From a virus: 20,269 nucleotides of DNA. The stretch covers positions 1 through 20,269 of the IMG/VR virus record IMGVR_UViG_3300031711_000031; one strand, given 5' to 3'. The position numbers and the translations under genes were made by a program. Shown here piece by piece: positions 1,072 through 19,035 of this stretch; position 1 is the stretch's first letter; each line of letters starts with the position of its first letter. The notes under the pieces are model-generated. The model ran no database searches. It worked only from the letters and a program-made list of their open reading frames with translations, and was not told where the DNA came from.

Positions 1072-2376
1072 TTACTGCCCTGTCATATTACGATATCGAC
1101 GGTTTTGATACTCCGCTGTACCGGGCACAACGGATTTGACTGCACGCGTTGCCCCCTGCACTGCTGGTCTATCAGTGACGCTTTGCAGGGCTGCATTACC
1201 GGCAAGTCCTGCACCTACAAGTGCTGTACCCTTGGCTCCCATAGCCAGTCGAGGCGCCAATGACTTGGCACCCTCCGAGCCTACAAGCAGATGGGCCATC
1301 GGCTTGGACACCGCATCGATGCCCTTACTGGTGCCCTTTACCGCTTTTCCCAACGCCCCAAGGGCACCGCCTGCCGCCTGCTTAAGCAGGTATTCAGTGC
1401 GGTCGGCTCCACGCGCCAACTCCTCGCACGCAGCACGCGTCGAAGCCAACTTGTTCAACGTCTCCACGAATTCCGCATAGGACGTAACCAACGGGTGTTC
1501 TGGGTTGACGACACCCGCCGACGCCCGCTTCGTCAAAGACTCTCCGATGGCATCGAGGGAAGTGAACAACCGCTCCTTTTGAAAGCGCGGAGTGAGAATG
1601 TGGAAAGCCACCTTCACATACACCGGGTCCTTCGTCACCGTGGACCATGCATTCACGACGTCGCCGAGACTGGCTCCCTCCAACGAGGCCTGTTTGACCT
1701 GACTGTATAGCCGGTCTCCGGCGTCTGCATAAATGAGCTCGAGCGCATCAATTTCGGAGCTCAGCGTGTCGCGCGCGCCGGCCAACTTCTGGTTCAGCTC
1801 CATCAACGGCCGCAGCGGGTCAGCAAACACCATGGGTGCAGGGGTGCCCGTGCCAAACAGGTCCCACATCTGCTGCTCGTAATGCGCGTGCTTCGGGAGG
1901 CCCGGCATCTTGGTCAGTTTTGGTAACCCCGGCACGGGCGGGTCCGACTCGGCAGACGCCGTCTTGTCCATGCCCGCATCACCGCGCTCCGCCGAGGCGC
2001 GCTTTGCCATCGATGGAGTCATTGCGAAGTCCAAAGTCCCGCGGTCGTACACGGAGCCCCCGCCTCCATCATTCAAGTCTTGTAATACCTGCGAAGGGTC
2101 GGCAGGGCCGCAGTCGAAATGAACTACCTTGTGGCTGCCTTCCTTACGAAATTCTTGCAGGTAGGCATCGCCATTGGTGAATTCAACTACGCGCCGAACT
2201 TGCTCGGGGGACAGCCGCTCGCTACGAACATTGTTCACAATGGCCTCGTTCAATGAGGCATACTTGCCCATCACCCAGTCTGATGCAGACTTTTTGCCAA
2301 GTACCTCCAGATGCTCACCAGAAACTGGCCTGGCGTCACGTTGTTGGAGAATAGTCTGAATCGGTGCATCACTCAT
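1072..2376 (-). CDS. Virion-type protein with many Lys-x-Ala repeats, 434 aa, function unknown
   Basis: A ribosome site reading AGAAAGG lies about 8 bases before the ATG. Residues 40-80 form a predicted helical domain (LNEAIVNNVRSERLSPEQVRR followed by a FTNGDAYLQEF segment) that looks like a conserved domain of large-phage structural proteins. Residues 100-170 are low complexity with Gly and Pro. Residues 333-405 are Gly/Ala-rich with a hydrophobic stretch near 377-397 that might contact a membrane. Eleven of 25 lysines are followed two residues later by Ala (29, 38, 125, 138, 162, 197, 228, 255, 283, 309, 332), and the C-terminal 100 residues have none. With 12.7% Ala about three would be expected. 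The gene sits between terminase and prohead protease, so a scaffold, internal head or ejection protein is plausible. I do not recognise a definite family. Confidence 0.78.
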   Translation of the reverse strand: MSDAPIQTILQQRDARPVSGEHLEVLGKKSASDWVMGKYASLNEAIVNNVRSERLSPEQVRRVVEFTNGDAYLQEFRKEGSHKVVHFDCGPADPSQVLQDLNDGGGGSVYDRGTLDFAMTPSMAKRASAERGDAGMDKTASAESDPPVPGLPKLTKMPGLPKHAHYEQQMWDLFGTGTPAPMVFADPLRPLMELNQKLAGARDTLSSEIDALELIYADAGDRLYSQVKQASLEGASLGDVVNAWSTVTKDPVYVKVAFHILTPRFQKERLFTSLDAIGESLTKRASAGVVNPEHPLVTSYAEFVETLNKLASTRAACEELARGADRTEYLLKQAAGGALGALGKAVKGTSKGIDAVSKPMAHLLVGSEGAKSLAPRLAMGAKGTALVGAGLAGNAALQSVTDRPAVQGATRAVKSVVPGTAEYQNRRYRNMTGQ

Positions 2377-2428
2377 GACTGTGGCCTTTCTTCACGACTC
2401 TGTAAGAATTAGCACATTGAAACGGCCC

Positions 2429-3139
2429 ATGGGAAGGCAAGACGGTCTCATCAATCATACTCAAGCAGCCAAACTGCTGGGTGTTACAAAGGGTCATCTT
2501 CGAAAAATGGCCAGCAATGGGGTCATCTTCCCGGCGCGCACCGGCGACCACTGCCATGAAACCGTCTATCGGCCCGAGGAAGTGTACGCGTTGCTCGAGT
2601 TGCGGGGACGCCGACTGCACATGCCCTCCATTGCCACAATGGCGCTCCAAGCTCAAGCACTTAGCCGCACAACAGCCAAGCGTTTAGACAGGCTTTGTCG
2701 ATTCCTTGGAATAGAGAACAACCGCTTGAAGCACGATGAGGAATCCATCTTCAATCTGCACATGCAGGTACGCGAGACGCTGAGAGAAGACCTAACTACC
2801 ATGCGTTCTGCTGCGCTCATTGAGTGGGCAGCCGTGTTCAACTCTTTCGATGAAGCTTACCTAGGACTGATTGAGCACTACACCTTGAACGAAAGCCCGT
2901 GGGACCTGTACCTTCAACTGGCGAACAATCTCATGCTACAACGTAGTGCTGAAGTGGACACCAACTTGGATTTCGCCTACGCCTGCCTTGACGCCGCTCG
3001 GCGGAACCTGCGGCACGTTGCCTACCACTACACGGCAGCAAAGCATGGGTATCGAGTGGCTGAAACGCTCTTCACAAAAGAAGCAGCCACCGAAGAAATC
3101 ATCGCGCAGTTGTACCCGCGCGACATCAGCCCATCCTGA
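2429..3139 (+). CDS. Helix-turn-helix (MerR/excisionase-type) DNA-binding protein
   Basis: This gene occupies the only stretch between the 434-residue gene and the terminase that has no minus-strand gene, so it is real despite being on the opposite strand. The N-terminus carries LINHTQAAKLLGVTKGHLRK followed after a short wing by a YRPEEVYALLELR helix, the usual layout of a MerR/excisionase-like winged helix-turn-helix. The rest is helical with no motif I recognise. The frame can be extended to an ATG at 2375, but that codon overlaps the start codon of the divergent gene and has no ribosome site, so I prefer the ATG at 2429, although its own ribosome site is weak. The stop lies 4 bases from the convergent terminase stop. 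It may be a transcription regulator or, less likely, a small terminase subunit. Confidence 0.72.
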   Translation: MGRQDGLINHTQAAKLLGVTKGHLRKMASNGVIFPARTGDHCHETVYRPEEVYALLELRGRRLHMPSIATMALQAQALSRTTAKRLDRLCRFLGIENNRLKHDEESIFNLHMQVRETLREDLTTMRSAALIEWAAVFNSFDEAYLGLIEHYTLNESPWDLYLQLANNLMLQRSAEVDTNLDFAYACLDAARRNLRHVAYHYTAAKHGYRVAETLFTKEAATEEIIAQLYPRDISPS

Positions 3140-3143
3140 CATA

Positions 3144-6017
3144 TCAACCCTGGTAGGTCGGACCTGAGTAACTGGACCAAACTGGGCCAACGTTGTCGCC
3201 CTCCTTGTTCGGGGCAATTACATCCGGGCGTGGCTTCACAATCATTGAGGCCAGGAAGCAATACAGCAGCGAGTGAAAAGCGTCGTCAGTCTTACCGGCA
3301 GTATGCCCGTACTGAATCATGCGAATTCTCTCGTTGTACTCGCTAAAGATGTTCAGCATGTCCTGCCCATAAGGCTCCTTGAATTCCTGCCAACGAGGGA
3401 ATTCAAATATGCCTCCACGCTTGATGGCAGCAAAAATGGCGCTCATAGCCTCTGTCCTATGTACTATCCAGCGTTGTAGCTTCGACTCCCAGCGCACCTT
3501 GGCCGAAAGTCTCGCAGCATATTGGTACTTCATTACGCGCTCTCTACCAAACCTGCGTGTGAGAAAGTCGTTGGGATAATGCCCGCCACCGTAGTCTGTC
3601 CCGATGATGCGAACGTTGTACGCCCGTAGGATTTCCTCAATCTTCTGCATTTGCCGTTCGGGCTCAGTATCCTCACCCATGAATCGGTGCATGTAAAAGA
3701 CACGGAACCTGTTACCCATGTACGTGCCCAGTGTCAGCACCGTGTAGCTGTGCTCGCCTGTGTTACCCTGGTAGGAAATACATCCATTACGTTCAGTAAC
3801 GATATAACCAGTGGGCACAGCACAGCAGTACACGCGCCCTTTGTACGGAACGTACTCAATCGAAGTTGATGGCGTGTTGAAGGCGTAATCACCAGCCATT
3901 GACCACAGCACCCTCCAACGAGTTTTACGATTTCCCTCAGCGGGTTTATGCAGACGAACCACCGCACGTAGGCCAAGTCGAATACAAAGCTCTTGAAAAT
4001 CTTCACAGAGACCCTTTGACGTTGAATAGAGGGCGCCACCAGTACAATCCTCACGTGGGTCATCATATCCATCCCCATCCACCATCGCCCGAAACAGCAC
4101 CCAAAGCTGCTCTGGGGCTAACTCCAAAAACTCCCTAGGAATACGCTTAGTGTCACACGCAGTGCCAATGTTGTCGGCATACCACTGCCAATATTGTTTA
4201 CCGTAAATTGTCCAGTTCACATCCCCCGTTTTTGGATTGGGAAACGTACTGAACGGAATGCTCATACGCTCCATGCAGTGTTGCATCTTCAAGTATGTCT
4301 CATGGTTTACAGTCTCACGCTGAGACATCTTTAGACAAGAAGGTCGGTCCCCGTCAAAGCATAACCCGCCTTCTGTAATTAGGTAGCCAAGTAATTCGAG
4401 CCAATCGCCCATACTATACGTAGCATCACAGGAGCCGGAATAACCTGGGCTAACAGGCAATCCAGGAAGTACAAACGACTCACGTTTCTCTCCGACCCAA
4501 TTCAATGCTCCGACAAACTTTACGTTGCCTCCACGCTTAGCTAGCTCACCTGCAGACTCAGTTACCCAACGTTCTCCCTGAGACATGCCAACACGCATAC
4601 GATGCGTATGCGTCACCATCAGGTCCATTCCGCCTTTGGTTTTCAGATGCAGTAATGGTTGGTCCCAATCACGTACCGTACGTACTTTGGGAAGTACAAA
4701 CGTCATTTCCCTGCTGTCAGGGTCCCACTGAGCTACCTTATCGTCATCAGTCAAATCTTTGAAGTACTTGAATCCGGTCTCCGTAAGAATCCTGGTCTCT
4801 TCATCATGGCAACCCCAATCGATACCAGCAAATATCTCCTGACCAAACCCCAGCGATTGGTACTTGTGCGCGTCCACCATGTAGACGTTGTCGCTGCAGC
4901 AAGCCCTTATCTGAGCAGTCGTAAGCGGGCGGAGCCCTGTGTCGAAAGAAACACCGAGTACCTCGTTGTAGAACTTGTTGCGGCCATAGTGGTCGTAGTT
5001 GTAAAGAAGCTCGTCCCAATCGAGCCACGGAACCATGAGCTGGGGGATGCGGTAGCCTTCGAATGGCGTATGTACTGGGTCATATTCAATGGAACACGCC
5101 CACTGTGCGTCATCTCCCATCGGGTAGATTCGCTTACCACATTTCTCGCAGATGAGATGTGCAAGCCCGATGTTCTTCTCACCAAGGATGTTCCAGTAAC
5201 GACCACCCTCCCCCATGGTGCAGTCACAGGGGACTACCCATTGGTTCTGAGTTGACCGGTTAGCCCAGTAGTCCTCGATGACGTTGTCGAGGGTCTTCGG
5301 GGTACCCGAGTAGATGTAACGCTTGAGTTGCTCAGGCGAGTGGGAAAGACACTGCTCGATAACGGGAATGTTGTCAGCGAGAATGTCTTGAATCTCATCG
5401 ATATCCAGCAGGTTGGCTGGTACGCCTCGAGCACGGTCAGCGTTTAGAAACGCGTTACGTAATGTAATCTTCGACCGATTGATGAACTGCTTCTCGAAAA
5501 CGTTCTGCGACAACATGTGTGTCGTAAACGTCTTCAATACTGGGCTGGTCTCGATGGGCTCTTTGATACGGTCGTTTGAGAATGTCTTGGTCTGCGTAGC
5601 TGAAGGGCTCACGTAGAGCACTTTGTACGAAGGAATGAGGCAGCTATAACTGAGCGCCATGTTGCCGAGCAACGTGGACTTCTCCACCTGGCGACCGCAC
5701 ATCAGCAGGATGCGGCGAAACGGGGTGTCATAAATCTGGCGTAGATGCCGCCGCCCATTGAACGTGAAATTCTCGTACCCGTCCATGCCGGGCATGCGAA
5801 AAGCATACTCAGTGAAACTTGACGGAAGTACTATCGGGGGAGGTTCGCGTTCGAGGATGCTGCCTTCCTCCTCCATGAACGGGTCTGAGTATTCCTCGAT
5901 TTCAGGAATCCATGACTTCCCAAGTTCAATTTGTCGTAGCTCAGCGTCGGTGAGTGGTCTACCATCTGGACCGTACTCAAGTTCTTCATCTGACGTGTAG
6001 ACTTCAGCAGCAGCCAT
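3144..6017 (-). CDS. terL: Terminase large subunit (DNA-packaging ATPase/nuclease) interrupted by an intein
   Basis: The 957-residue precursor would splice to a 607-residue terminase large subunit, a normal length. Visible in order: a Walker A variant CGRQVEKST (107-115); a Walker B region LLDIDEIQ (203-210); a zinc-binding insert with Cys264, Cys266, Cys290 and Cys293, as in GpA-like terminases; and a RuvC-type nuclease with acidic positions in GIDWG (398-402), GTDYGGG (806-812, numbered in the precursor) and KTDDAFHSLL (909-918). It powers DNA translocation into the procapsid through the portal and cuts the concatemer. The intein covers residues 403-752, right after GIDWG. A G-rich ribosome site (GGGGGGA) precedes the ATG at 6017. 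The downstream neighbour is convergent, with 4 bases between the stops. The family call is secure; the genome-end type it produces is not visible. Confidence 0.95.
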   Translation of the reverse strand: MAAAEVYTSDEELEYGPDGRPLTDAELRQIELGKSWIPEIEEYSDPFMEEEGSILEREPPPIVLPSSFTEYAFRMPGMDGYENFTFNGRRHLRQIYDTPFRRILLMCGRQVEKSTLLGNMALSYSCLIPSYKVLYVSPSATQTKTFSNDRIKEPIETSPVLKTFTTHMLSQNVFEKQFINRSKITLRNAFLNADRARGVPANLLDIDEIQDILADNIPVIEQCLSHSPEQLKRYIYSGTPKTLDNVIEDYWANRSTQNQWVVPCDCTMGEGGRYWNILGEKNIGLAHLICEKCGKRIYPMGDDAQWACSIEYDPVHTPFEGYRIPQLMVPWLDWDELLYNYDHYGRNKFYNEVLGVSFDTGLRPLTTAQIRACCSDNVYMVDAHKYQSLGFGQEIFAGIDWGCHDEETRILTETGFKYFKDLTDDDKVAQWDPDSREMTFVLPKVRTVRDWDQPLLHLKTKGGMDLMVTHTHRMRVGMSQGERWVTESAGELAKRGGNVKFVGALNWVGEKRESFVLPGLPVSPGYSGSCDATYSMGDWLELLGYLITEGGLCFDGDRPSCLKMSQRETVNHETYLKMQHCMERMSIPFSTFPNPKTGDVNWTIYGKQYWQWYADNIGTACDTKRIPREFLELAPEQLWVLFRAMVDGDGYDDPREDCTGGALYSTSKGLCEDFQELCIRLGLRAVVRLHKPAEGNRKTRWRVLWSMAGDYAFNTPSTSIEYVPYKGRVYCCAVPTGYIVTERNGCISYQGNTGEHSYTVLTLGTYMGNRFRVFYMHRFMGEDTEPERQMQKIEEILRAYNVRIIGTDYGGGHYPNDFLTRRFGRERVMKYQYAARLSAKVRWESKLQRWIVHRTEAMSAIFAAIKRGGIFEFPRWQEFKEPYGQDMLNIFSEYNERIRMIQYGHTAGKTDDAFHSLLYCFLASMIVKPRPDVIAPNKEGDNVGPVWSSYSGPTYQG
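3762..4811 (-). mobile_element. Intein with LAGLIDADG homing endonuclease, inside terL
   Basis: This 350-residue in-frame insertion begins with Cys403 (CHDEETRILTETG, splicing block A) and ends with ISYQGN at residue 752 (block G), followed by a +1 Thr of the extein. Block B is MVTHTHRMRV with the T-x-x-H pattern (Thr469, His472), and block F is VYCCAVPTGYIVTERNG. Between them lie the two LAGLIDADG motifs LLGYLITEGG (542-551) and LFRAMVDGDGYDDP (641-654), with a KRIP block D (624-627) between those. Removing it joins GIDWG to TGEHSY and restores a continuous nuclease motif, which fixes both borders. It should self-splice, and its endonuclease should cut intein-less terminase alleles. The residue before the final Asn is Gly instead of the usual His. 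Both endonuclease motifs keep acidic residues, so the enzyme may be active. Confidence 0.93.
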
Positions 6018-6784: not shown

Positions 6785-7778
6785 GGGTTGGGTCTACCTC
6801 GTCTTCGAACTCGCCCTCGTCATCGTCATCAACGCTCTCACCCTCTACATCTATAACTTGTGCCTTGGCGTCTGGGTGCACGTTTGTCGTATGCCGACCG
6901 GCGGACAACTGATGTAATGTAGGCACTACACTAGTTGTAGTAGCAACCCCAATCTTTCTCAAGTCCTCTCGTAGGCCCGTCTCAGGATTTACTACAAGTT
7001 CCTTGATTCGAGTCATGCCCTCGGCGATGGCGGAGAAGCCCTGGCCCATCTGTGCGCCATTTGGCCCTCCATAATTGACTGACTCCCAGGCACGATAGGC
7101 AGCAATATCCAATGTGCTTTGAACTATCTCGGCAGTTGGTATGGCCTTTGGCAGCACTCCCATATGCAATTGAGTCAACATTGAAGCCAATGGAGACGAC
7201 GGTAGACGGGCAGCAACTACACGTGGGTCCCCGTGGCGCATCCGAGTCAAGGAAGGAATCTGCGCCAACTTCTCCCTGTCCCTGCTCTCTTCGAAGGCTC
7301 CCGTAAATCTCATCTCAAGCAAAGCCCGCATCTCTGCAGAATCCAGCAGGTCAACGTCCCAGAAAAAGTGACGATACAACCGCACGGTTTCCTCATCGGC
7401 CTGCGTTACTCCGAAGCGCGAACGAAGCCCATGCGCCACGACCTCCAATGGAGCGTGCGAGATAAGCAGCGTCTCTACCAGCTCACGCCAACGCGGCTTA
7501 CTCAACACCTTGATGGCGCGGTTCATTGCCGGGGTAGGGTTGAATGCCTTGGCTAGCCCCTCCTTTATGAGAAACTTCTGTGAGCGAAGATGCCCTTCGT
7601 CCTCCGGATAAAACGGAGTGGGCGGACGCATCCTGTCTCGAAGCCACTGAATGTACCAGTCCCCGAGATAGTCGAGGCCCAGCTCATTGGCAGTGGCTCT
7701 AATGAATACGTTATCGTAGGTGTCGGGATGAACTACAAGGTACTTGTAATAGTTCTCAGCGGGGCTACGCCTAATCAT
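6771..7778 (-). CDS. Unknown 335 aa protein with helix-turn-helix-like segment and acidic tail; candidate small terminase subunit
   Basis: Residues about 97-145 read as a helix-turn-helix-like unit (helices around LVETLLISHAPLEVVAHGL and DEETVRLYRHFFWDV), the type used to recognise a sequence and pair with an aromatic FFDV-like helix. The last 30 residues are very acidic (VDDDDEGEFEDEVDP). A TGGAG ribosome site lies about 10 bases before the ATG. The gene is upstream of the terminase large subunit on the same strand, separated only by the overlapping 160-residue gene. DNA-binding helices plus packaging context make a small terminase subunit possible; this is inference, as no family signature is clear. 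Divergent HNH gene starts 38 bases upstream. Confidence 0.78.
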   Translation of the reverse strand: MIRRSPAENYYKYLVVHPDTYDNVFIRATANELGLDYLGDWYIQWLRDRMRPPTPFYPEDEGHLRSQKFLIKEGLAKAFNPTPAMNRAIKVLSKPRWRELVETLLISHAPLEVVAHGLRSRFGVTQADEETVRLYRHFFWDVDLLDSAEMRALLEMRFTGAFEESRDREKLAQIPSLTRMRHGDPRVVAARLPSSPLASMLTQLHMGVLPKAIPTAEIVQSTLDIAAYRAWESVNYGGPNGAQMGQGFSAIAEGMTRIKELVVNPETGLREDLRKIGVATTTSVVPTLHQLSAGRHTTNVHPDAKAQVIDVEGESVDDDDEGEFEDEVDPTHDHA

Positions 7779-7816
7779 CCTAAAAGTCTCCAGTAAAGTC
7801 GGGAATAAGAGCTAGG

Positions 7817-8431
7817 ATGGCAAAAAACAATCGAAGCATTGATTACACCAACAACATTTACGGGGAAGTACTAATCATACGCCAGGTTGATACAAGACAC
7901 TGGTGGGGCCGTTGTAGCTGCGGGGTTGAAAAGTCTTTCATCATCTCAAACCTAGTTAGCGGTAGCACAAAAACCTGTGGGCATGGACGGGTAATTCATG
8001 GGAGGTCCAAGATAGACCCTGAATACATGGTTTGGTACTGCATGGTAGACCGCTGCCACAACCCAGAAAACCCTGCCTACAAAGACTATGGAAAACGAGG
8101 AATCACCGTTTGCTCGGAATGGCGTGAAGACTACATGGCATTCTTGAACTACATGGGCAAAAGACCATCCCACTTGCATACATTAGACCGCAGGGACAAT
8201 TCTGGAAGATATGAGCCAGGAAACGTGCACTGGGCAAACATGAAGGTTCAGTCAAATAACCGCCGTAGCAACCGCCTAATTACAATTCAAGGGGTCACAA
8301 AAACAGCACAGCAATGGATTGAGACGTACCCACACCTAAAAGGTGCACGTCACATCGTCAGTCAGAGACTAAAACGAAAATGGAGTGAGGAAAAAGCAAT
8401 CCTCACTCCAGTTCGTGTGAAGCGCCGTTAG
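7817..8431 (+). CDS. Free-standing HNH-type homing endonuclease
   Basis: The 204-residue protein begins with a small zinc-ribbon-like unit (Cys43, Cys45, Cys64 in GRCSCG...KTCGHG). A central block follows with YGKRGITVCSEW (101-112), TLDRRDNSGRYEPGNVHWA (132-150) and VQSNNRR (154-160). That order is typical of phage HNH endonucleases in which the Asp/Asn/His cluster binds the metal. The C-terminus (about 163-200) resembles a small DNA-binding helix repeat. The gene is opposite in strand to its neighbours and carries a terminator of its own. Lines I counted by hand run from 43 to 53% G+C, against about 60% in a line of the adjacent 716-residue gene, which suggests separate origin. It probably acts as a mobile cutter rather than in phage assembly. 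Confidence 0.88.
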   Translation: MAKNNRSIDYTNNIYGEVLIIRQVDTRHWWGRCSCGVEKSFIISNLVSGSTKTCGHGRVIHGRSKIDPEYMVWYCMVDRCHNPENPAYKDYGKRGITVCSEWREDYMAFLNYMGKRPSHLHTLDRRDNSGRYEPGNVHWANMKVQSNNRRSNRLITIQGVTKTAQQWIETYPHLKGARHIVSQRLKRKWSEEKAILTPVRVKRR

Positions 8432-11257: not shown

Positions 11258-12535
11258 CTATCCATTACCTAGCAAAGTTGGGTCACCGCTCGTCACAGTA
11301 CCCGCTATTGTCAGGAAAGTTGGAATGGTTGATATAGGGAACTGGCCTGGTCCAGGTGTGCCCATAAGTAACGTAGGCGGCAGCACACTTATCACTGCGG
11401 AGCCAACTGTGGCCATCGGTTTGTTGCCTCCATTGAGACGGATGGTGGGAGCGGTCAGCTCGAGAGTCCCTCCTACGGTGACCTTCGCGCTCTTGGCCAC
11501 ATTCAGCGAGAACGTGTTGTCCGCAAAAATCTCCATCACATCTTTCACACGCAACCGCAGCTTCTTACGGCACAGTACACCGAGATTCCCATCTATCCTT
11601 GCGAATGTGTTTCCTCCGCGGTCAAAAGTAAAACGTAGCTTGATGAGGTTCCCGGTTCCTGGAAGCAATGAGCCATCTTCCCCATTGAATCCGTTCCGAG
11701 CCAATGCCAGTTCATAGACAACGGGCTCAGTCGCACCAAGACCCGTTGCCTGCTGGTCAATGATTCCATCGCTGTCAGTTTCCGGAACAGGGTCATGCAC
11801 GCGGCCTGCTCCAACACGAATATCGGCGTACTTGTCGTTCGCATACACGCGCAACGTCTGCTTGAACTCAGTAGGTAGGTTTGTAATACCCTCGCCTTCC
11901 TGAATACCCCATTTGATTGAGCCACCCGCTGTATGCATCGCGTAGTTCTCTGCAAAATCCATTATCAGATTGTTGAGAGGCACATAGATGCGCTGAGCTA
12001 ACTCATTACTACCGATTTGAAGTACGCCACCTCGATGAAGCACGATGAAGTTTCCATCACGCCCACGCACAAACATGTCGCCGGGCTTACCGATGGGTCT
12101 TCCGCCCGCAAAACTTGCCGCTGTAGGAGCTTGGTTCTCACTCCCGTGGCTTGTAGTACCACCGGGGGCCTCCGTGGCGTCCCCGGACATGGGCACCGTC
12201 TCATGCGTCATTACAAAGGCCAAAACAAAAGGGGGAGAGCTATCCCCAGGCCAGCAAACAGCACACTTGGCCCCGACATCTGGAATGGCAGTGAAACCGT
12301 CACCTCGATTGGCGTGCACATAGGGAGAACCGACAGGTATCTGCAACATGCGCTGTTGGTCGAATTGGCTAAATACATCGACCGTATAGTTCACGAGGTC
12401 CACGTTGACCACGCGACCCATCAAGATATCGGTCTTACCTAAGCCGGCTGGCGCCGTCATGCTTGAGCGAAACTCTGTCCGCTGCTCGCGCACTCCACGC
12501 GCTCCACCCGACACGCCTTGCCGAACAGGTGCCAT
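11258..12535 (-). CDS. Baseplate spike protein (gpV/gp5-like, OB-fold)
   Basis: Residues 39-110 form an OB-fold-like domain (GRVVNVDLVNYTVDV, then IPDVGAKCAVCWP and FVLAFVMTHE) as in Mu gp45, P2 gpV and T4 gp5. A GDMFVRGRDGNFIVLHRGG turn follows (152-170). The C-terminal part (about 325-369) has short beta strands (LRLRVKDVMEIFADN, SAKVTVGGTLELTAP) typical of the intertwined needle that pierces the outer membrane or cell wall. The last 40 residues are Gly/Pro/Thr-rich. The start overlaps the polymerase stop as TGATG, with a GAGG site about 10 bases upstream. This gene is the main reason to assign a contractile tail. No lysozyme domain is seen. A downstream ATG at residue 26 is a weaker start. 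Confidence 0.85.
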   Translation of the reverse strand: MAPVRQGVSGGARGVREQRTEFRSSMTAPAGLGKTDILMGRVVNVDLVNYTVDVFSQFDQQRMLQIPVGSPYVHANRGDGFTAIPDVGAKCAVCWPGDSSPPFVLAFVMTHETVPMSGDATEAPGGTTSHGSENQAPTAASFAGGRPIGKPGDMFVRGRDGNFIVLHRGGVLQIGSNELAQRIYVPLNNLIMDFAENYAMHTAGGSIKWGIQEGEGITNLPTEFKQTLRVYANDKYADIRVGAGRVHDPVPETDSDGIIDQQATGLGATEPVVYELALARNGFNGEDGSLLPGTGNLIKLRFTFDRGGNTFARIDGNLGVLCRKKLRLRVKDVMEIFADNTFSLNVAKSAKVTVGGTLELTAPTIRLNGGNKPMATVGSAVISVLPPTLLMGTPGPGQFPISTIPTFLTIAGTVTSGDPTLLGNG

Positions 12536-15500
12536 CAGTACGCGTGCCTCGGTACATCATGCAGATGGGCCAGAGACAGCCGGTTCTTAGCGTGCTCCTG
12601 GTTCAACCCAAACTCCGCACCATAAGCCATCCCTGGTATCGGGTGGAGGCTATGGATGTCAGACCTGCCACCTGTGGCGGCCGATTCAAGCAGCGTATTG
12701 TGCAGTCGAACGTGCTGCATCTTGGCCATCCAATCTTCTTGAACGGACAAGGGCATCATGTCCACCCCCTTCAGCACTGGCTCATGCTCGATGGGGCGCT
12801 TGCCTGATTGAACCAGTTCTCTATTGATGGCGCTAATCTTTGACGTTGGATGAAACTCCCCACGAAGAACGCCCTCATAGTCACCGGGCTCCTTGATTTT
12901 CGTGAGGTTGCTCATCGCCTTTACGACCGTCTCAATGTGCTGGCGCTTGATACCTTCATCCTTGTACAACTTGTGGACTTCATCCGCCATGTAATTCTGT
13001 ACGGACTCCATGTTCCCAGTAGCCTTGTAAAGGTCATGCGGATTCACTACGGTACGGCTAGGGTCGCTGAGCAGTTGTCCCCGCTCAATCTTGGCTCCTA
13101 CATGTGGAGGAGCCCATTGAGAGGGGACTTCATCACCTACCGGTCGCCACAACGGGGCACCACTGGCATCCTTACCCACATGGTGCTTCTTGCCGCCCAC
13201 ATAGACGTTGACCCCTGTGGCGTCTTTGTCGACGCGTTCAACCACGCCTGCCCTCATAGCCAATGTAGCTGAGTCCTTTACATTCTTGGGTAGCTTCATG
13301 AGCTGAGAGAACCGGTCAAAGCCGCCGAGCACCTTTGAGTTGCCACCTGTAGATACAGAACCACCTGTATGAAATACCTTCATGGTGAGTTGCACAGCGC
13401 GCTCTCCCAAGGACTGTGCGGCTACAACGCCAACGTTCTCGCCAATGTCATGCAGCTGCCCATGCGCTGAAATGCCCATGCACTTCTGGCATACTCCCTT
13501 GGCATGTTCGCACTTCAAGGGACTACGAACTTCAATCTTCGCGTTGCGGTCCGCCGCACGCATCTTCGACACAATGTCAGGCGTAAGTAATGTACCCGCC
13601 GGCACAGTCATTCCCTTTGAGCTGAACTCCTTTTGAAGGAAGCGGTCATGTACATCGCTATCAGTAATGGGCAACGAGATACCGCGAGTTGTACCGCAGT
13701 CATGCCCAGTCACCACCATGTCCATGGTATTGGCCATGAGGAGCTTCGACAAGTAGCCAGGCTCACGCACCTCTTGTACTTTCATCACAGCACCGTGCCT
13801 GGCTCCGTGCATCTGCGTCCAATACTCACCAGTGTCGAGGCCTTCAGAATAGCTCTTGGTAATAGGCGTAGGTATCGTTTTACCGGCGGCGTCCTTCACC
13901 AACATGGGGGCCAGCGTAAGCTGCTTGTACTGGTCCCATCCGGGTTTGACTCCTGCCAAATGCATCATCATCAAGTTGCTGGGGTCGTCCGTCGCCTTTT
14001 CAAGATGGCGCTTCTTCAACTCTGTTGAGGCATCCGTCCAAACTTTTATGGCGTCTCGGTCAGCTTTAGCCTGACTGTTGTGCGTGTTGGCACGAATAGC
14101 AGCAACTTCTTTCCTGGCAGGACCTAATACACGCTCCCTTGTAGCAATGTCAGGAGTAAAATCGGACAAAGCCAGCGTATGCACACCCACCGGAATGTAC
14201 ACCCGCTGCGCTGGGTCCAATCTATCAGCGCCAACAAAGCCGCTGTGCTCCACAGTAACCACTCCACTAGCTGCGCCATTACCAATGTCCTTCAATTTGT
14301 CAGCCACGGCGCCGTACTCACCGCTATGGCTATGCACAACCTGAGTCAGTAAGGCGTCGAGACCCTTGCCGTTGAGCCGCGTGTGCAAGTCTTCCAGCAT
14401 CTTCTTTTGCATGGGCTCGGGCAGCGCAGCTGCCATGAGGATACGACCAGGTGTGGTTACCTGAGTGCCGATTCTGACCTTACTCGTAACGGAAATCTTG
14501 CCCTTCTGTACAGCGGTCAAAGCATCTGCTGGATGCTTCATGTCATGCACCTTGCCACCTTCATCGACTCTTGAAAGCTTGTAAAGGCCCAATGCTGACT
14601 CCAACGTAGGCTGATACATCACGCGACCAGAGGCCTCACTAAACAAGTTGTTCGAAGGGAACATCTTCTTAGCTTCTGCCACTGCCTCATCACTGATGGG
14701 GACAAAGACACTCATCGTGTCACCGTCAAAGTCCGCATTGTAGCCGCCAGTTACTAACGGGTGAATCTTGATGGCATTGCCTTCTACAACCCTAGGCCTA
14801 AACGCCTGCACGCTGTACTTGTGCAGAGCTGGGTCTCTCTTTAGCATCACAGGACGCTCAGAAAGAACCTGCTGCAGCGCGCGCTGTGCCTGCGGAGAAT
14901 TCTTAGACACCAAGCGCTGGGCTTCAATAACTGTGCTCGCCACACCGGACTTCTTCAATTGTCCAACTACGAAGGGGGCGAACAACTTCATCGCGTGCTC
15001 GGCGGGAAGCCCTACCTCATCAAGCGACAATGAGGGCTCAGGGACGATGGTCGAGCGCATGCTCATATCCTGCTTACGACTGATGAGTGTGCTCTGGAAG
15101 TAACCCGTCTTTGGCTGGGCTCCTTGAATCTGATGAATCAAACCCTTGTGCTCGGCATCCGCATAAGGAATGCCAACGCCCATGATGGCCTTTACCCCAT
15201 CGTATAGGTTCTTTCGAAGCTCAGTTTTATTCTCATCGGTCAAGTTGGCCGTGAGCACTGGGTCCTTCATCTGGTCATTGTTTTGGGCGAACTGAGAATA
15301 CAGCTCATTGATATCCGCGTACTTGAAGTTCCCGTCGGGCATCGTTGTGATGGGGCGCATCGCAGGAGGTATCACCGGCAAGTTATGCAAAATGTAGGCG
15401 TCGGCCGGCGTCATACCGGCTTCCTTCAACGCCTGCAGGCGCTTCACTTTCTTCAGCACCTTGTCCACCTTCGTGGCTGAAGTCGAATTGAGCTCCTTCT

Positions 15501-18500
15501 TCGCAGCGGTCAGCTCTGCGGTTACATCGATTCGAGAAAGAAGCTGCTTGATGGCGGCACCACCAGTAACCCCTTTGCCCAACGGAACGTGCTGGTCATG
15601 CTTGTCCAAGGCACGGGTGCCCTGCACAAGTCCGTTGTAGTCATCAGCGCTCAACCCTGTGAGAGCGCGAATCGAACCCTCAAACACTGGATTAGGCACA
15701 GGCTCAGCCAATTCAATACGGCTCCACTTCTTTCCACCATGGCCGCCCGTCAACTTCTCGTCGAACAACCCACCTGGCTTTGGCCGCGGGTCTCCGCTCT
15801 TCGGGTCCGGCTTGGCATAAAGAAGCTCAGCCGGCTTCGGCAGCACCCGGTCCCCCGTCATCTCCTTGATTTTGGCGTCAGTCAACGGGCTCAAGATGAA
15901 TTGATGCCCTTGCTTCTCTACGTTGATGCCAGCACCCTTGAGCATGTCTGTGAACTTCTTGAAGGCAAAGGTAGGCTTTGGCGTAGGTAATGCGTCACCC
16001 TGCTGGATGGCATCCCACACATCGTGATGCTGGCTCTGCCATTGCTTTTGGGGGCTGACGTTGGGGTCTGGTCCTTCACTCTTCCAGGTCTGCATCTCCC
16101 GGATATTCGCGCGTGCACCGTGCGCCAATAGGGCATAAAGCCCTAGGGGGTCCATGGACTGGCCTCCCGAATGCCCGCCTCCGGAGGGCTGCAGGTTGGT
16201 GTCGTACTTCACAGGCTCGCTACCAGGGAGGTTCAAGCCTGAGCGCACCGACACTTTCTTATCGACCTGATGATGCAGCTTTATCATGTGCTGGTACCCC
16301 ACCAGGGCATCGCCAAGATGCTGCTTCGTTGTGGGGTCGTACAGCGCTTCAGTGTCGCTGATGCCGTGCTCTTTCAGCAGCCGCTGCACGTTAGCTAGCT
16401 GGTTGGTCCCATCGAAGTTACTAACGATGTAGGGCTTCCCAGTCTTCTTGGCAATCTTGCTGGCGGCTGTCTCAAGTACCTGCCCGACGTTCATACGCCC
16501 AGGAACCCCAGATGGATTCAACGCAACTTCAATGTGCTTACCATCGGGCGTGTGAGGCATATCATGGTCAGCCACAACTTTAGTAACAATGCCTTTGTTA
16601 CCGTAGCGTCCAGCAATCTTGTCGCCCACCTGCATAGGCTCAACTGCTTTGACGTGAACTACAATCTCATTACCTTTCTTGAATGAGCTAACAACCTCGC
16701 CAGCTCCTTCACCTTCCCACGTCAACGATTGGTCAGCGTATTGCCCTCCCAGACTTTTTCGAATAGCGGACAAACCCACCCTATCGTGCACGTTGGACTT
16801 CTTCATAGCGAGTACAAGCGGGTCCCCAGGGAACACCTTTGTACCAACTCTTACTAAGCCATCGTCACCAATAGTACCTACCTGCTCCTTGTTGTAGCGA
16901 CCTACGTGCTGTGTCAGGTAGCGGCCCTTGGCAAGCACGGTCTCTTCATCGACAGGAAGATTGTGCTTGTACAAATGAACGCTGCTCAATTTCTTGGCGG
17001 CACTCTCGCTAACTACTACGCCATCCTCGAAGTTGTAGCCCTTGTATGGAATGTAGCCAACTCGCAGGTTTGTACCGAGGGCGATGGTGCCATTCTTGGA
17101 GAAGTTCGTATCCGCGATAGTCTGCTCTCGACGTACCCTATCCCCCAGCTTCACTAATGCCGTTGAATCGAGCACCGACTTCGCATCATTGAGCGGATAG
17201 TTCCTGTAAATCTGAACCTCATGGTCTGCTCCATGCTTGTCAGTGATGATAATGGCGTCGTGCTTTACCGCCTTCACAGTCCCATCCACGGGGGATTGGT
17301 GCGACGCCTGAGAACCAATGACTTCTTCGAATGTCCTAGCCCCTACCCAGTCACGTCCAGTACCCACCTGAACTAACGGGGCTTCCCTGTGCTCCAATGA
17401 AATAGCCTGCTCCATGTGCCTAGTAGCCATGGAGGCACGCCCTCCTGACGTATTATTGATGAACGGAATGAGATTACTAGTTACATTGAAGAACTGGGAC
17501 GGATGCCGCATCACATAGTCAGCATCCTTCAAATGCCCCTCGGTGATTTCATTCCCAGGTGCTGACCACTTCACAGCTGTGGTCTTCGCCGTAGGCTTGT
17601 CATCCTTCCACTCAACCTGGTCTGGCAGCACGACACGCGAACGCAAGAACTTGGCGGGCCCTATGTACTCCATCTGCCCGGTCTTCACATTGTACAAAGG
17701 AACCTGCGGCTCATTGCCGACTTTGCGCACACCAAGTGGCATGCGAAGCGTTACCCCAGTCTTACTCCCTTCAGGTGTATGAATCGGGTCTAGAAAGCAC
17801 ATGTGAGATGGATTGACGAACTTCACCTCATCGAGGATTGTATTCTCAGATTGAATCCCCCCGGGGCCCATCACCGTCGTTTGCTGTGCAGCGGATACCA
17901 TCTCCACAGGGTTCACCTGCTTTGCCACCTGCGCCGCAGAGTTCTTGTGGAAGGTCTCACGTACTGGTTTATTGAAGAACTCAGGACGAACTATTTCGCG
18001 CGGGTTGCTTGAAGTGTTGACCTTACGCAGCATCTTCATTCGAATGGTAGGTGCGGCAGCTACAATCTTGTCGTGCGAGAAATCCCCTACGCTACGTAGG
18101 TCTTTGAACATCAAAGAATCACGGTCATCCATCGGGGCGCCACCATGCACATCCAACATGCGCTTAGTCGCGCGCACCAAGACGTCGCCGTCAACATGGT
18201 CTACAGCCCGGCCTAAGGTAACAACGGTTGACTCTGGCCGCATGTCGAACTGGTCAAAGTGCTGAGCTACGTTGGCCACTGCTGCCGCATGAGATGGTGC
18301 TTCAACTCGTCGTGTAGTTTTGTAAAACCTGGCTAAAGCGCCGGCCGTATCGCGGGCACCCTTGTTTGCAGCCAGTACATCCTTACCCCAGGTCTTTTCT
18401 AAATCCTCATCATGAACACCCAGTGTCGACAGCAGCGGGTACAACGGGATGCGCGCCTTTGTACCGAACTCAACCTTGAACTCCTTTGATACATCGTCAA

Positions 18501-18933
18501 ATGTAACGTCGAAGTTAGGCTTCTTACTCGATTGAAAGGCAGTCTCAATCTCGCCTGTCTGCTTTCGTCGAGTATAGGCACCCGGTTTCAACTGCCACTG
18601 ATTATCAACTTGATACTCCTGCCCGTTGACGATTTGGCTATGACGACGCGTGACTTTAGGCAGCTCAGCAATACGCGTCTTCGCGCGTATCTCACGGCCA
18701 GTCTGCTTGTCCCGTAAAACCAGGTGGGCAATCACCGGAACACCCCACGTTTGGCCGTTCACCTTGGCCTGATGCTGCCCGCGCAGGTCATCTGGGTTTA
18801 GGTTGTCCTGCACTTCCAAGTGCTCGAGCGAAAGGACCTGTGTCCTCCCATCCACTGGGAACTGTTTCCCAATGGCCTCCAGCGTCCGGTCTCGATAGTT
18901 GTTGAAGGCTTCAGCAGGGTCCAAGTACGACAT
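12535..18933 (-). CDS. Single-chain DNA-directed RNA polymerase, beta fused to beta-prime
   Basis: The protein has 2132 residues from the ATG at 18933, which has GGAGAG 5 bases upstream; an in-frame ATG 18 codons earlier has no such site. The first ~1009 residues are beta: MGPGGI and HTPEGSKTG, GYNFEDGVVVSES (632-644), GDKIAGRYGNKG (770-781), LNPSGVPGRMNVGQ, and the C-terminal GGQ...GARANIREM clamp segment. From about residue 1010 it is beta-prime: LPVIPPAMRP, QAFRP...EGNAIKIHPL, catalytic NADFDGD (1399-1405, aspartates 1401, 1403, 1405), a bridge-helix region, a C-terminal zinc site (Cys1746, 1808, 1815, 1818) and QLTMKVFHTGG of the trigger loop. E. coli beta plus beta-prime total about 2750 residues, so large inserts are lacking. 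It should transcribe phage DNA. Cellular fusions (Helicobacter, Wolbachia) have the same order, but the neighbours here are phage genes. Confidence 0.96.
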   Translation of the reverse strand: MSYLDPAEAFNNYRDRTLEAIGKQFPVDGRTQVLSLEHLEVQDNLNPDDLRGQHQAKVNGQTWGVPVIAHLVLRDKQTGREIRAKTRIAELPKVTRRHSQIVNGQEYQVDNQWQLKPGAYTRRKQTGEIETAFQSSKKPNFDVTFDDVSKEFKVEFGTKARIPLYPLLSTLGVHDEDLEKTWGKDVLAANKGARDTAGALARFYKTTRRVEAPSHAAAVANVAQHFDQFDMRPESTVVTLGRAVDHVDGDVLVRATKRMLDVHGGAPMDDRDSLMFKDLRSVGDFSHDKIVAAAPTIRMKMLRKVNTSSNPREIVRPEFFNKPVRETFHKNSAAQVAKQVNPVEMVSAAQQTTVMGPGGIQSENTILDEVKFVNPSHMCFLDPIHTPEGSKTGVTLRMPLGVRKVGNEPQVPLYNVKTGQMEYIGPAKFLRSRVVLPDQVEWKDDKPTAKTTAVKWSAPGNEITEGHLKDADYVMRHPSQFFNVTSNLIPFINNTSGGRASMATRHMEQAISLEHREAPLVQVGTGRDWVGARTFEEVIGSQASHQSPVDGTVKAVKHDAIIITDKHGADHEVQIYRNYPLNDAKSVLDSTALVKLGDRVRREQTIADTNFSKNGTIALGTNLRVGYIPYKGYNFEDGVVVSESAAKKLSSVHLYKHNLPVDEETVLAKGRYLTQHVGRYNKEQVGTIGDDGLVRVGTKVFPGDPLVLAMKKSNVHDRVGLSAIRKSLGGQYADQSLTWEGEGAGEVVSSFKKGNEIVVHVKAVEPMQVGDKIAGRYGNKGIVTKVVADHDMPHTPDGKHIEVALNPSGVPGRMNVGQVLETAASKIAKKTGKPYIVSNFDGTNQLANVQRLLKEHGISDTEALYDPTTKQHLGDALVGYQHMIKLHHQVDKKVSVRSGLNLPGSEPVKYDTNLQPSGGGHSGGQSMDPLGLYALLAHGARANIREMQTWKSEGPDPNVSPQKQWQSQHHDVWDAIQQGDALPTPKPTFAFKKFTDMLKGAGINVEKQGHQFILSPLTDAKIKEMTGDRVLPKPAELLYAKPDPKSGDPRPKPGGLFDEKLTGGHGGKKWSRIELAEPVPNPVFEGSIRALTGLSADDYNGLVQGTRALDKHDQHVPLGKGVTGGAAIKQLLSRIDVTAELTAAKKELNSTSATKVDKVLKKVKRLQALKEAGMTPADAYILHNLPVIPPAMRPITTMPDGNFKYADINELYSQFAQNNDQMKDPVLTANLTDENKTELRKNLYDGVKAIMGVGIPYADAEHKGLIHQIQGAQPKTGYFQSTLISRKQDMSMRSTIVPEPSLSLDEVGLPAEHAMKLFAPFVVGQLKKSGVASTVIEAQRLVSKNSPQAQRALQQVLSERPVMLKRDPALHKYSVQAFRPRVVEGNAIKIHPLVTGGYNADFDGDTMSVFVPISDEAVAEAKKMFPSNNLFSEASGRVMYQPTLESALGLYKLSRVDEGGKVHDMKHPADALTAVQKGKISVTSKVRIGTQVTTPGRILMAAALPEPMQKKMLEDLHTRLNGKGLDALLTQVVHSHSGEYGAVADKLKDIGNGAASGVVTVEHSGFVGADRLDPAQRVYIPVGVHTLALSDFTPDIATRERVLGPARKEVAAIRANTHNSQAKADRDAIKVWTDASTELKKRHLEKATDDPSNLMMMHLAGVKPGWDQYKQLTLAPMLVKDAAGKTIPTPITKSYSEGLDTGEYWTQMHGARHGAVMKVQEVREPGYLSKLLMANTMDMVVTGHDCGTTRGISLPITDSDVHDRFLQKEFSSKGMTVPAGTLLTPDIVSKMRAADRNAKIEVRSPLKCEHAKGVCQKCMGISAHGQLHDIGENVGVVAAQSLGERAVQLTMKVFHTGGSVSTGGNSKVLGGFDRFSQLMKLPKNVKDSATLAMRAGVVERVDKDATGVNVYVGGKKHHVGKDASGAPLWRPVGDEVPSQWAPPHVGAKIERGQLLSDPSRTVVNPHDLYKATGNMESVQNYMADEVHKLYKDEGIKRQHIETVVKAMSNLTKIKEPGDYEGVLRGEFHPTSKISAINRELVQSGKRPIEHEPVLKGVDMMPLSVQEDWMAKMQHVRLHNTLLESAATGGRSDIHSLHPIPGMAYGAEFGLNQEHAKNRLSLAHLHDVPRHAY

Positions 18934-19035
18934 GCGCTCTCCGAAGTATAACCGGCCTGGGGTACCAAGTGGCCTGGAATATCGCAACTACCACACTTTT
19001 GCCGAGATAAGAGCTTTGAACAAAGGAATCACGGC
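18934..19035. promoter_or_regulatory. Divergent control region between polymerase and small plus-strand genes
   Basis: These 102 bases are the only gap between the leftward structural transcript and the rightward small genes, so promoters for both directions probably lie here or just inside the flanking genes. I found no convincing host sigma-70 -35/-10 pair on either strand. A TATACT on the minus strand (18945-18950) is too close to the start codon to leave a leader with the ribosome site. No repeat or operator-like dyad stands out. Phage-specific promoter signals would not be recognised by eye. Confidence 0.35.

Follow-up and report, generated by a model that had tools for sequence, protein, structure and literature searches.

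A phage gene predicted to encode both large subunits of a bacterial-type RNA polymerase in one chain

Can a phage carry a bacterial-type RNA polymerase whose two large subunits form a single protein, and with which partners might such a protein work? The question is raised by one gene in a complete virus record of 20,269 bases, the whole of which was analysed and is called the window below. The gene (12535-18933, minus strand) is a single ORF for a putative RNA polymerase core of 2132 amino acids, and it begins with an ATG, as in most relatives. The ORF could be extended upstream to a TTG at 18987 (12535-18987, minus strand), but this codon is probably unused because the majority of relatives start at the matching ATG. 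A sequence-only reading of this DNA had proposed that both subunits lie in one frame with NADFDGD, GYNFEDG, and GDK/GNKG motifs and a C-terminal zinc site, and the ORF, Pfam matches, and conservation among relatives confirm each of these elements.

The beta-like part covers residues 1-1006 (15916-18933, minus strand), ending where cellular beta ends on the family HMM for most bacterial loci. It is followed by a fusion linker, residues 1007-1016 (15886-15915, minus strand), and by a beta-prime-like part, residues 1017-2132 (12535-15885, minus strand), which is 31% identical to E. coli RpoC. Profile searches recover RpoB and RpoC domains in order along the one chain, as the sequence-only reading would predict. 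The Pfam order is Rpb2_3, Rpb2_6 (E 5e-56), Rpb1_1, Rpb1_2 (9e-31), and Rpb1_5, and bacterial beta-prime chains in the PDB match with E values near 1e-110. The NCBIfam scores (rpoC 502 bits, rpoB 325 bits) all fall under the cut-off because the window polymerase is divergent.

The residues expected of an active site are in place. The beta motif GYNFEDG (residues 632-638; 17020-17040, minus strand) is supported by a conservation check among relatives. The beta active-site lysines lie in GDKIAGRYGNKG (residues 770-781; 16591-16626, minus strand) and the catalytic NADFDGD occupies residues 1399-1405 (14719-14739, minus strand). Both lysines of GDK/GNKG and all three aspartates of DxDGD are without variation in 120 fused relatives. 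The C-terminal zinc site of beta-prime (13480-13698, minus strand) consists of C1746, C1808, C1815, and C1818, equivalent to E. coli C814, C888, C895, and C898, and the trigger-loop motif TMKVFHTGG (13360-13386, minus strand) includes H1855, equivalent to E. coli H936. By its catalytic residues, the gene is close to certain to encode a two-barrel polymerase of the multisubunit type, whose synthesis of RNA is inferred from sequence.

Two other features set the protein apart from bacterial enzymes. None of 138 relatives shows the N-terminal zinc ribbon of beta-prime (E. coli C70-C88), which 80 of 81 bacterial beta-primes have; its absence was not part of the sequence-only reading. Three residues of the rifampicin pocket are altered (H526 to A, R529 to Q, and S531 to T), and therefore rifampicin resistance is predicted. 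A segment resembling a coiled coil is kept where the bacterial clamp helices bind sigma.

The joint between the two parts was placed by applying the family HMM to bacterial loci, 71 of which are near full length. In most of these loci the end of beta maps to about residue 1006 and the beginning of beta-prime to about 1017-1020, which leaves a linker of about 10 residues. An AlphaFold2 model of residues 600-1490, built with 53 relatives as input (mean pLDDT 87, pTM 0.77), renders the joint as a beta hairpin of strands 1003-1008 and 1011-1016 with a local pLDDT of about 94, and a Foldseek search with the model returns bacterial beta-prime. If the model is correct, the final strand of beta turns by way of a tight hairpin into the opening strand of beta-prime, and as a result both double-psi barrels of the active site would come from one chain.

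The arrangement is not confined to the window. Scans of IMG/VR for relatives yielded 41, then 316, and then at least 555, with 80 loci listed for each of the last two. Among 139 distinct viral relatives, whose polymerases are more than 1.5% apart, 115 have the one-frame architecture, on contigs of up to 210 kb. With the exception of an HNH gene, the window genes have orthologues in two related genomes, G002 and G006, where their order is conserved. These phages form a large and little-noticed group.

Two peculiarities of individual loci were recorded in passing. In L125, L126, L149, L168, L182, L197, and L198 the polymerase frame is interrupted solely by isolated in-frame TGA codons, which suggests that those phages or their hosts decode TGA as an amino acid. 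In L027, L030, L032, L034, L035, L039, L107, L115, L117, and L128, conserved polymerase motifs carry large insertions at sites such as NADFDG/D, HTPE/G, and GNKG. Most of these are intein-like, with a Cys start and an Asn end, and the L035 polymerase has three of them.

In the phylogenetic analysis, the window polymerase shares with those of the phages Arash and D69 a clade from which bacterial and other phage polymerases are excluded (100/100). In a 65-row mixture-model tree the branch supports are 100 for bacteria, 100 for the fused phages including Arash and D69, and 98 for phages that encode the subunits in separate genes. For the same groups, the supports in a careful 24-row tree are 100/100, 100/100, and 94/96. 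The trees include an alphaproteobacterium and E. coli, and are without archaeal, eukaryotic, Helicobacter, or Wolbachia sequences. An origin within a sampled bacterial clade was rejected since the phage clade falls outside the sampled bacteria in the mixture-model tree. The proposal of a phage-encoded fusion is thus borne out by a phage clade of its own (100/100) and by neighbours that are phage genes. The sequence-only reading had left undecided whether this is a deep-branching metagenomic phage polymerase or a separate capture. The choice is now narrowed, in that the clade lies neither within sampled cellular clades nor with the separate-gene phages, which include the candidate mReC group discussed below.

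Arash, a Salmonella phage, and D69, a Vibrio phage, are cultured relatives in which the fusion has gone unrecognised. It is unmentioned in the text of the Arash paper (PMC10585845) and in the annotations examined, and we found no published account of it in the open-licence literature. Arash was isolated from hospital sewage, so the purely aquatic setting that had been suggested does not hold. Together with D148 and D181, these phages share with the window a common clade (100/100), a matching site at which beta is joined to the front of beta-prime, and the lack of the N-terminal zinc ribbon. Their genomes are about 180-187 kb and encode a sigma of the Gp10 type, a feature established for the large genomes of the clade rather than for the window, which at 20 kb is too short to show it. 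They differ in that beta-prime is cut near residue 1489, with the remainder in a second gene, and in having AADYDGD instead of NADFDGD. Their polymerases are 31% identical to that of the window, and no cultured one-frame member was found.

The cuts in the D69/Arash branch help to order these events. Beta-prime is cut at about 1489 and, in some phages, additionally near 1115-1142, positions that correspond to E. coli beta-prime residues of about 550-569 and 172-199. The cuts never coincide with the cellular boundary between beta and beta-prime. Because beta and the start of beta-prime are joined throughout the clade and the cuts fall elsewhere, the fusion is likely to be ancestral, and would be old relative to the division of beta-prime in D69- and Arash-type phages. 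The position of the branch depends on the model: LG puts it beside a fused sequence (87), the mixture model makes it sister to the rest (95), and the careful 24-row tree leaves it unresolved. A fusion followed by a fission could be ordered on the tree of this clade. As side observations, relatives of Arash and D69 at L210-L241 have the polymerase in three genes, with cuts near window residues 1115-1142 and 1489, and most two- and three-gene types have Ala in place of the Asn of NADFDGD.

Companion genes were surveyed in 29 large records of the clade (163-210 kb, completeness not rated), the scan for alpha, omega, and sigma genes that had been proposed for the full genome. Each genome has exactly one polymerase. 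No member of the alpha family (control 13/14) or the omega family (control 14/14) was detected in any of the 29, and we cannot exclude that such genes have diverged past detection; host alpha could also be used. All 29 encode a homologue of the Arash virion sigma Gp10, and none of 15 other phages with a polymerase gene does. Only some of the 29 genomes give a Pfam match to sigma region 2 or 4. The Gp10 homologues of G002 and G006 match sigma region 3 (E about 1e-11; 7e-12 for G002), and PDB matches of the G002 protein are SigA and RpoD.

These data lead us to lean, with some reserve, toward a packaged two-protein holoenzyme composed of the one-chain core and a phage sigma, wherein packaging and the promoter steps are inferred. 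The alpha scaffold and omega chaperone would probably be dispensable, assembly without them being an inference. The core would partner with the Gp10-type sigma, whose presence in the large genomes is established and whose binding is inferred. By analogy with Arash, core and sigma would probably be packed in the virion, reach the host cell together with the phage DNA, and begin phage transcription without host polymerase.

Support for packaging comes from the published Arash proteome. Gp206, which we identify as beta plus the front of beta-prime, has 3516 spectra, the highest of all virion proteins, followed by 1210 for Gp216 and 467 for the sigma Gp10 (PMC10585845). Such counts reflect copy number only roughly. 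Per residue, those counts amount to 2.31, 2.00, and 2.00, respectively, compared with 1.51 for the portal and 4.34 for the capsid (counts from PMC10585845). A second Arash sigma, gp196, is missing from the published list of virion proteins, in which Gp194 is followed by Gp197 (PMC10585845). The case is weakened because the proteomic data were obtained for Arash, whose enzyme is split and only distantly related (31% identity), and because there are no activity, structure, or virion data for a one-ORF form.

A real one-chain polymerase might instead be made during infection to transcribe middle or late genes, with virion copies representing carry-over. The Arash authors themselves admit possible carry-over of abundant proteins (PMC10585845), and some clade genomes have additional sigma-like genes; both points favour this explanation. 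However, the Arash polymerase heads the particle proteome, per-residue spectra are alike for Gp10 and the two polymerase pieces, and each genome has a sole polymerase, all of which count against it. We regard the carry-over explanation as unlikely, yet it cannot be set aside lightly.

It is less probable still, and in our estimation improbable, that the chain is functional only in a hybrid enzyme, with alpha or sigma taken from the host. The absence of alpha from all 29 genomes and the coiled-coil-like segment kept at the sigma-binding clamp helices would both accommodate such borrowing, whereas a dedicated sigma in every clade genome tested and the activity of phiKZ-type phage enzymes without alpha (PMC7598289) speak against it.

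A bipartite promoter-like motif is inferred to mark the phage transcription units. Upstream of G002 and G006 genes, an element rich in AA, in many cases GCAA or GAAA, is followed after about 13-14 bases by TC(A/G)GGGATAAGA, often immediately before the ribosome-binding site. The matrix was trained on these two genomes, and its statistics are independent only for the window and other loci. In the window, the best promoter-like site, an ATAAGA box preceded by an AA element (7765-7810, plus strand), scores 25.1, a value reached by none of 200 window shuffles (maximum 17.2). A weaker site (18967-19012, plus strand; score 13.6, reached by 14 of 200 shuffles) lies upstream of the polymerase gene, within the divergent region, and is directed away from that gene, and G002 and G006 have sites at the matching place. 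No site scoring 18 or more occurs in 1445 kb of bacterial loci. The ATAAGA-type box may resemble the minus-10 element of FliA (sigma-28). The motif occurs chiefly in close relatives, and its reader, which may be the phage enzyme or host polymerase carrying a phage sigma, is only inferred.

The gene next downstream of the polymerase (11258-12535, minus strand) has no family match and is spike-like by inspection only. Overlap of its ATG with the stop codon of the polymerase makes co-translation of the two probable, and its orthologue adjoins the 3' side of the polymerase gene in G002 and G006. The large terminase gene (3144-6017) lies in the same block; this arrangement and the overlap count in favour of the packaged holoenzyme. 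Where the terminase has its nuclease motif GIDWG/TGEHS, it contains an intein of about 350 residues (3762-4811, minus strand) that matches LAGLIDADG weakly; the G006 orthologue is without it. The HNH endonuclease gene (7817-8431, plus strand) directly follows the strongest promoter-like site. Finally, a gene on the opposite strand inside the structural block (2375-3139, plus strand) has a weak match to a MerR/excisionase-type HTH, and its protein is conserved in G002 and G006.

It is also very doubtful that the window polymerase belongs to the mReC lineage, whose discovery was based on beta and beta-prime HMMs (Weinheimer and Aylward 2020; PMC7481178). The mReC phages likewise are large tailed phages that encode a deep-branching, bacterial-type multi-subunit polymerase, and the window protein would probably satisfy those HMMs. 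However, mReC capsid proteins match PF07068, two named mReC contigs come from IMG 3300017989, and no fusion was reported among that study's own sequences (PMC7481178). By scanning with another phage beta-prime, we located a second large phage group (L434-L513) with separate genes for beta-prime (about 900 amino acids) and then beta (about 1010 amino acids), the reverse of the order in bacteria. This group includes two contigs of IMG 3300017989. The T4-type capsid PF07068 is present in 7 of 12 separate-gene records and in none of 29 fused-clade genomes, so the separate-gene group is the likely mReC, an identification made without the published mReC sequences and without a certain match of the three named mReC contigs to records. 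Unlike the window clade, it keeps the N-terminal zinc ribbon (69 of 75), and no Gp10-type sigma was found in it. The candidate mReC contigs L449 and L466 fall in another clade than the fused phages. Capsid family, gene order, and tree all disagree with mReC membership, and the window polymerase probably lies outside the published group. The beta-prime of RHph_TM30 was rejected as a close relative since it keeps the zinc ribbon, and a scan for close kin of that protein found none; the PF07068 search was positive in RHph_TM30 and in Carin-5.

An origin of the fusion by faulty assembly, or by decay of a bacterial gene, has no supporting evidence that we could find and is practically untenable, given an unbroken frame in 176 loci (start before residue 60 and end after 2030; some share a contig), the invariant catalytic residues, and a contig of a different dataset that is 100% identical to the window polymerase over 1451 residues; recurrence in independent contigs excludes an assembly error. 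None of the outcomes named in advance as refuting the fusion came about, since there is no placement in a sampled cellular clade, there are no bacterial neighbours, and the fusion stands in independent contigs.

Taken as a whole, the clade would represent a deep new family of phage polymerases with a one-chain core and a Gp10-type sigma, carried in virions and operating without alpha or omega, in which fusion preceded the radiation and beta-prime was later cut in the Arash/D69 branch. Our confidence in this full account is evenly balanced by doubt. The usual polymerase has five or more chains and here two might suffice; to our knowledge, every cellular multi-subunit polymerase relies on a scaffold of the alpha type. 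A core that is naturally one chain, together with sigma, would be, if true, approximately the smallest known bacterial-type holoenzyme. Because cultured relatives (Arash and D69) exist and the genes are compact, the two-protein holoenzyme is directly testable.

The sequence-only reading took known fusions of rpoB and rpoC to be cellular. This stands for Helicobacter and Wolbachia, and needs amending because Arash and D69 carry one as well. The cellular RpoBC proteins (NCBIfam PRK09603 and PRK14844) likewise have beta and then beta-prime on one chain, but are about 2840-2890 amino acids long. Kinship with them was rejected: the window polymerase scores 558 and 522, far under the respective cut-offs of 5372 and 4632, and the separate rpoC and rpoB models together outscore each fused model. 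The crAss-like phage polymerase also has both barrels on one chain. Its homology to beta and beta-prime HMMs was not detectable to the mReC authors (PMC7481178), whereas most of the window polymerase can be aligned with the bacterial subunits beta and beta-prime. The phiKZ and AR9 jumbo-phage polymerases, like the fused clade as far as detected, have no alpha or omega, and a virion form of them exists. However, they consist of several divergent fragments, with two enzymes per phage and a promoter factor that is not sigma-like (PMC7598289), and show mere traces of similarity to the window protein. Membership in the phiKZ type, with its split core and its virion and non-virion sets, is not met by one chain in one copy per genome. 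The fused phages add a polymerase lineage beside the mReC-like and phiKZ-like ones, which bears on the age of phage polymerases.
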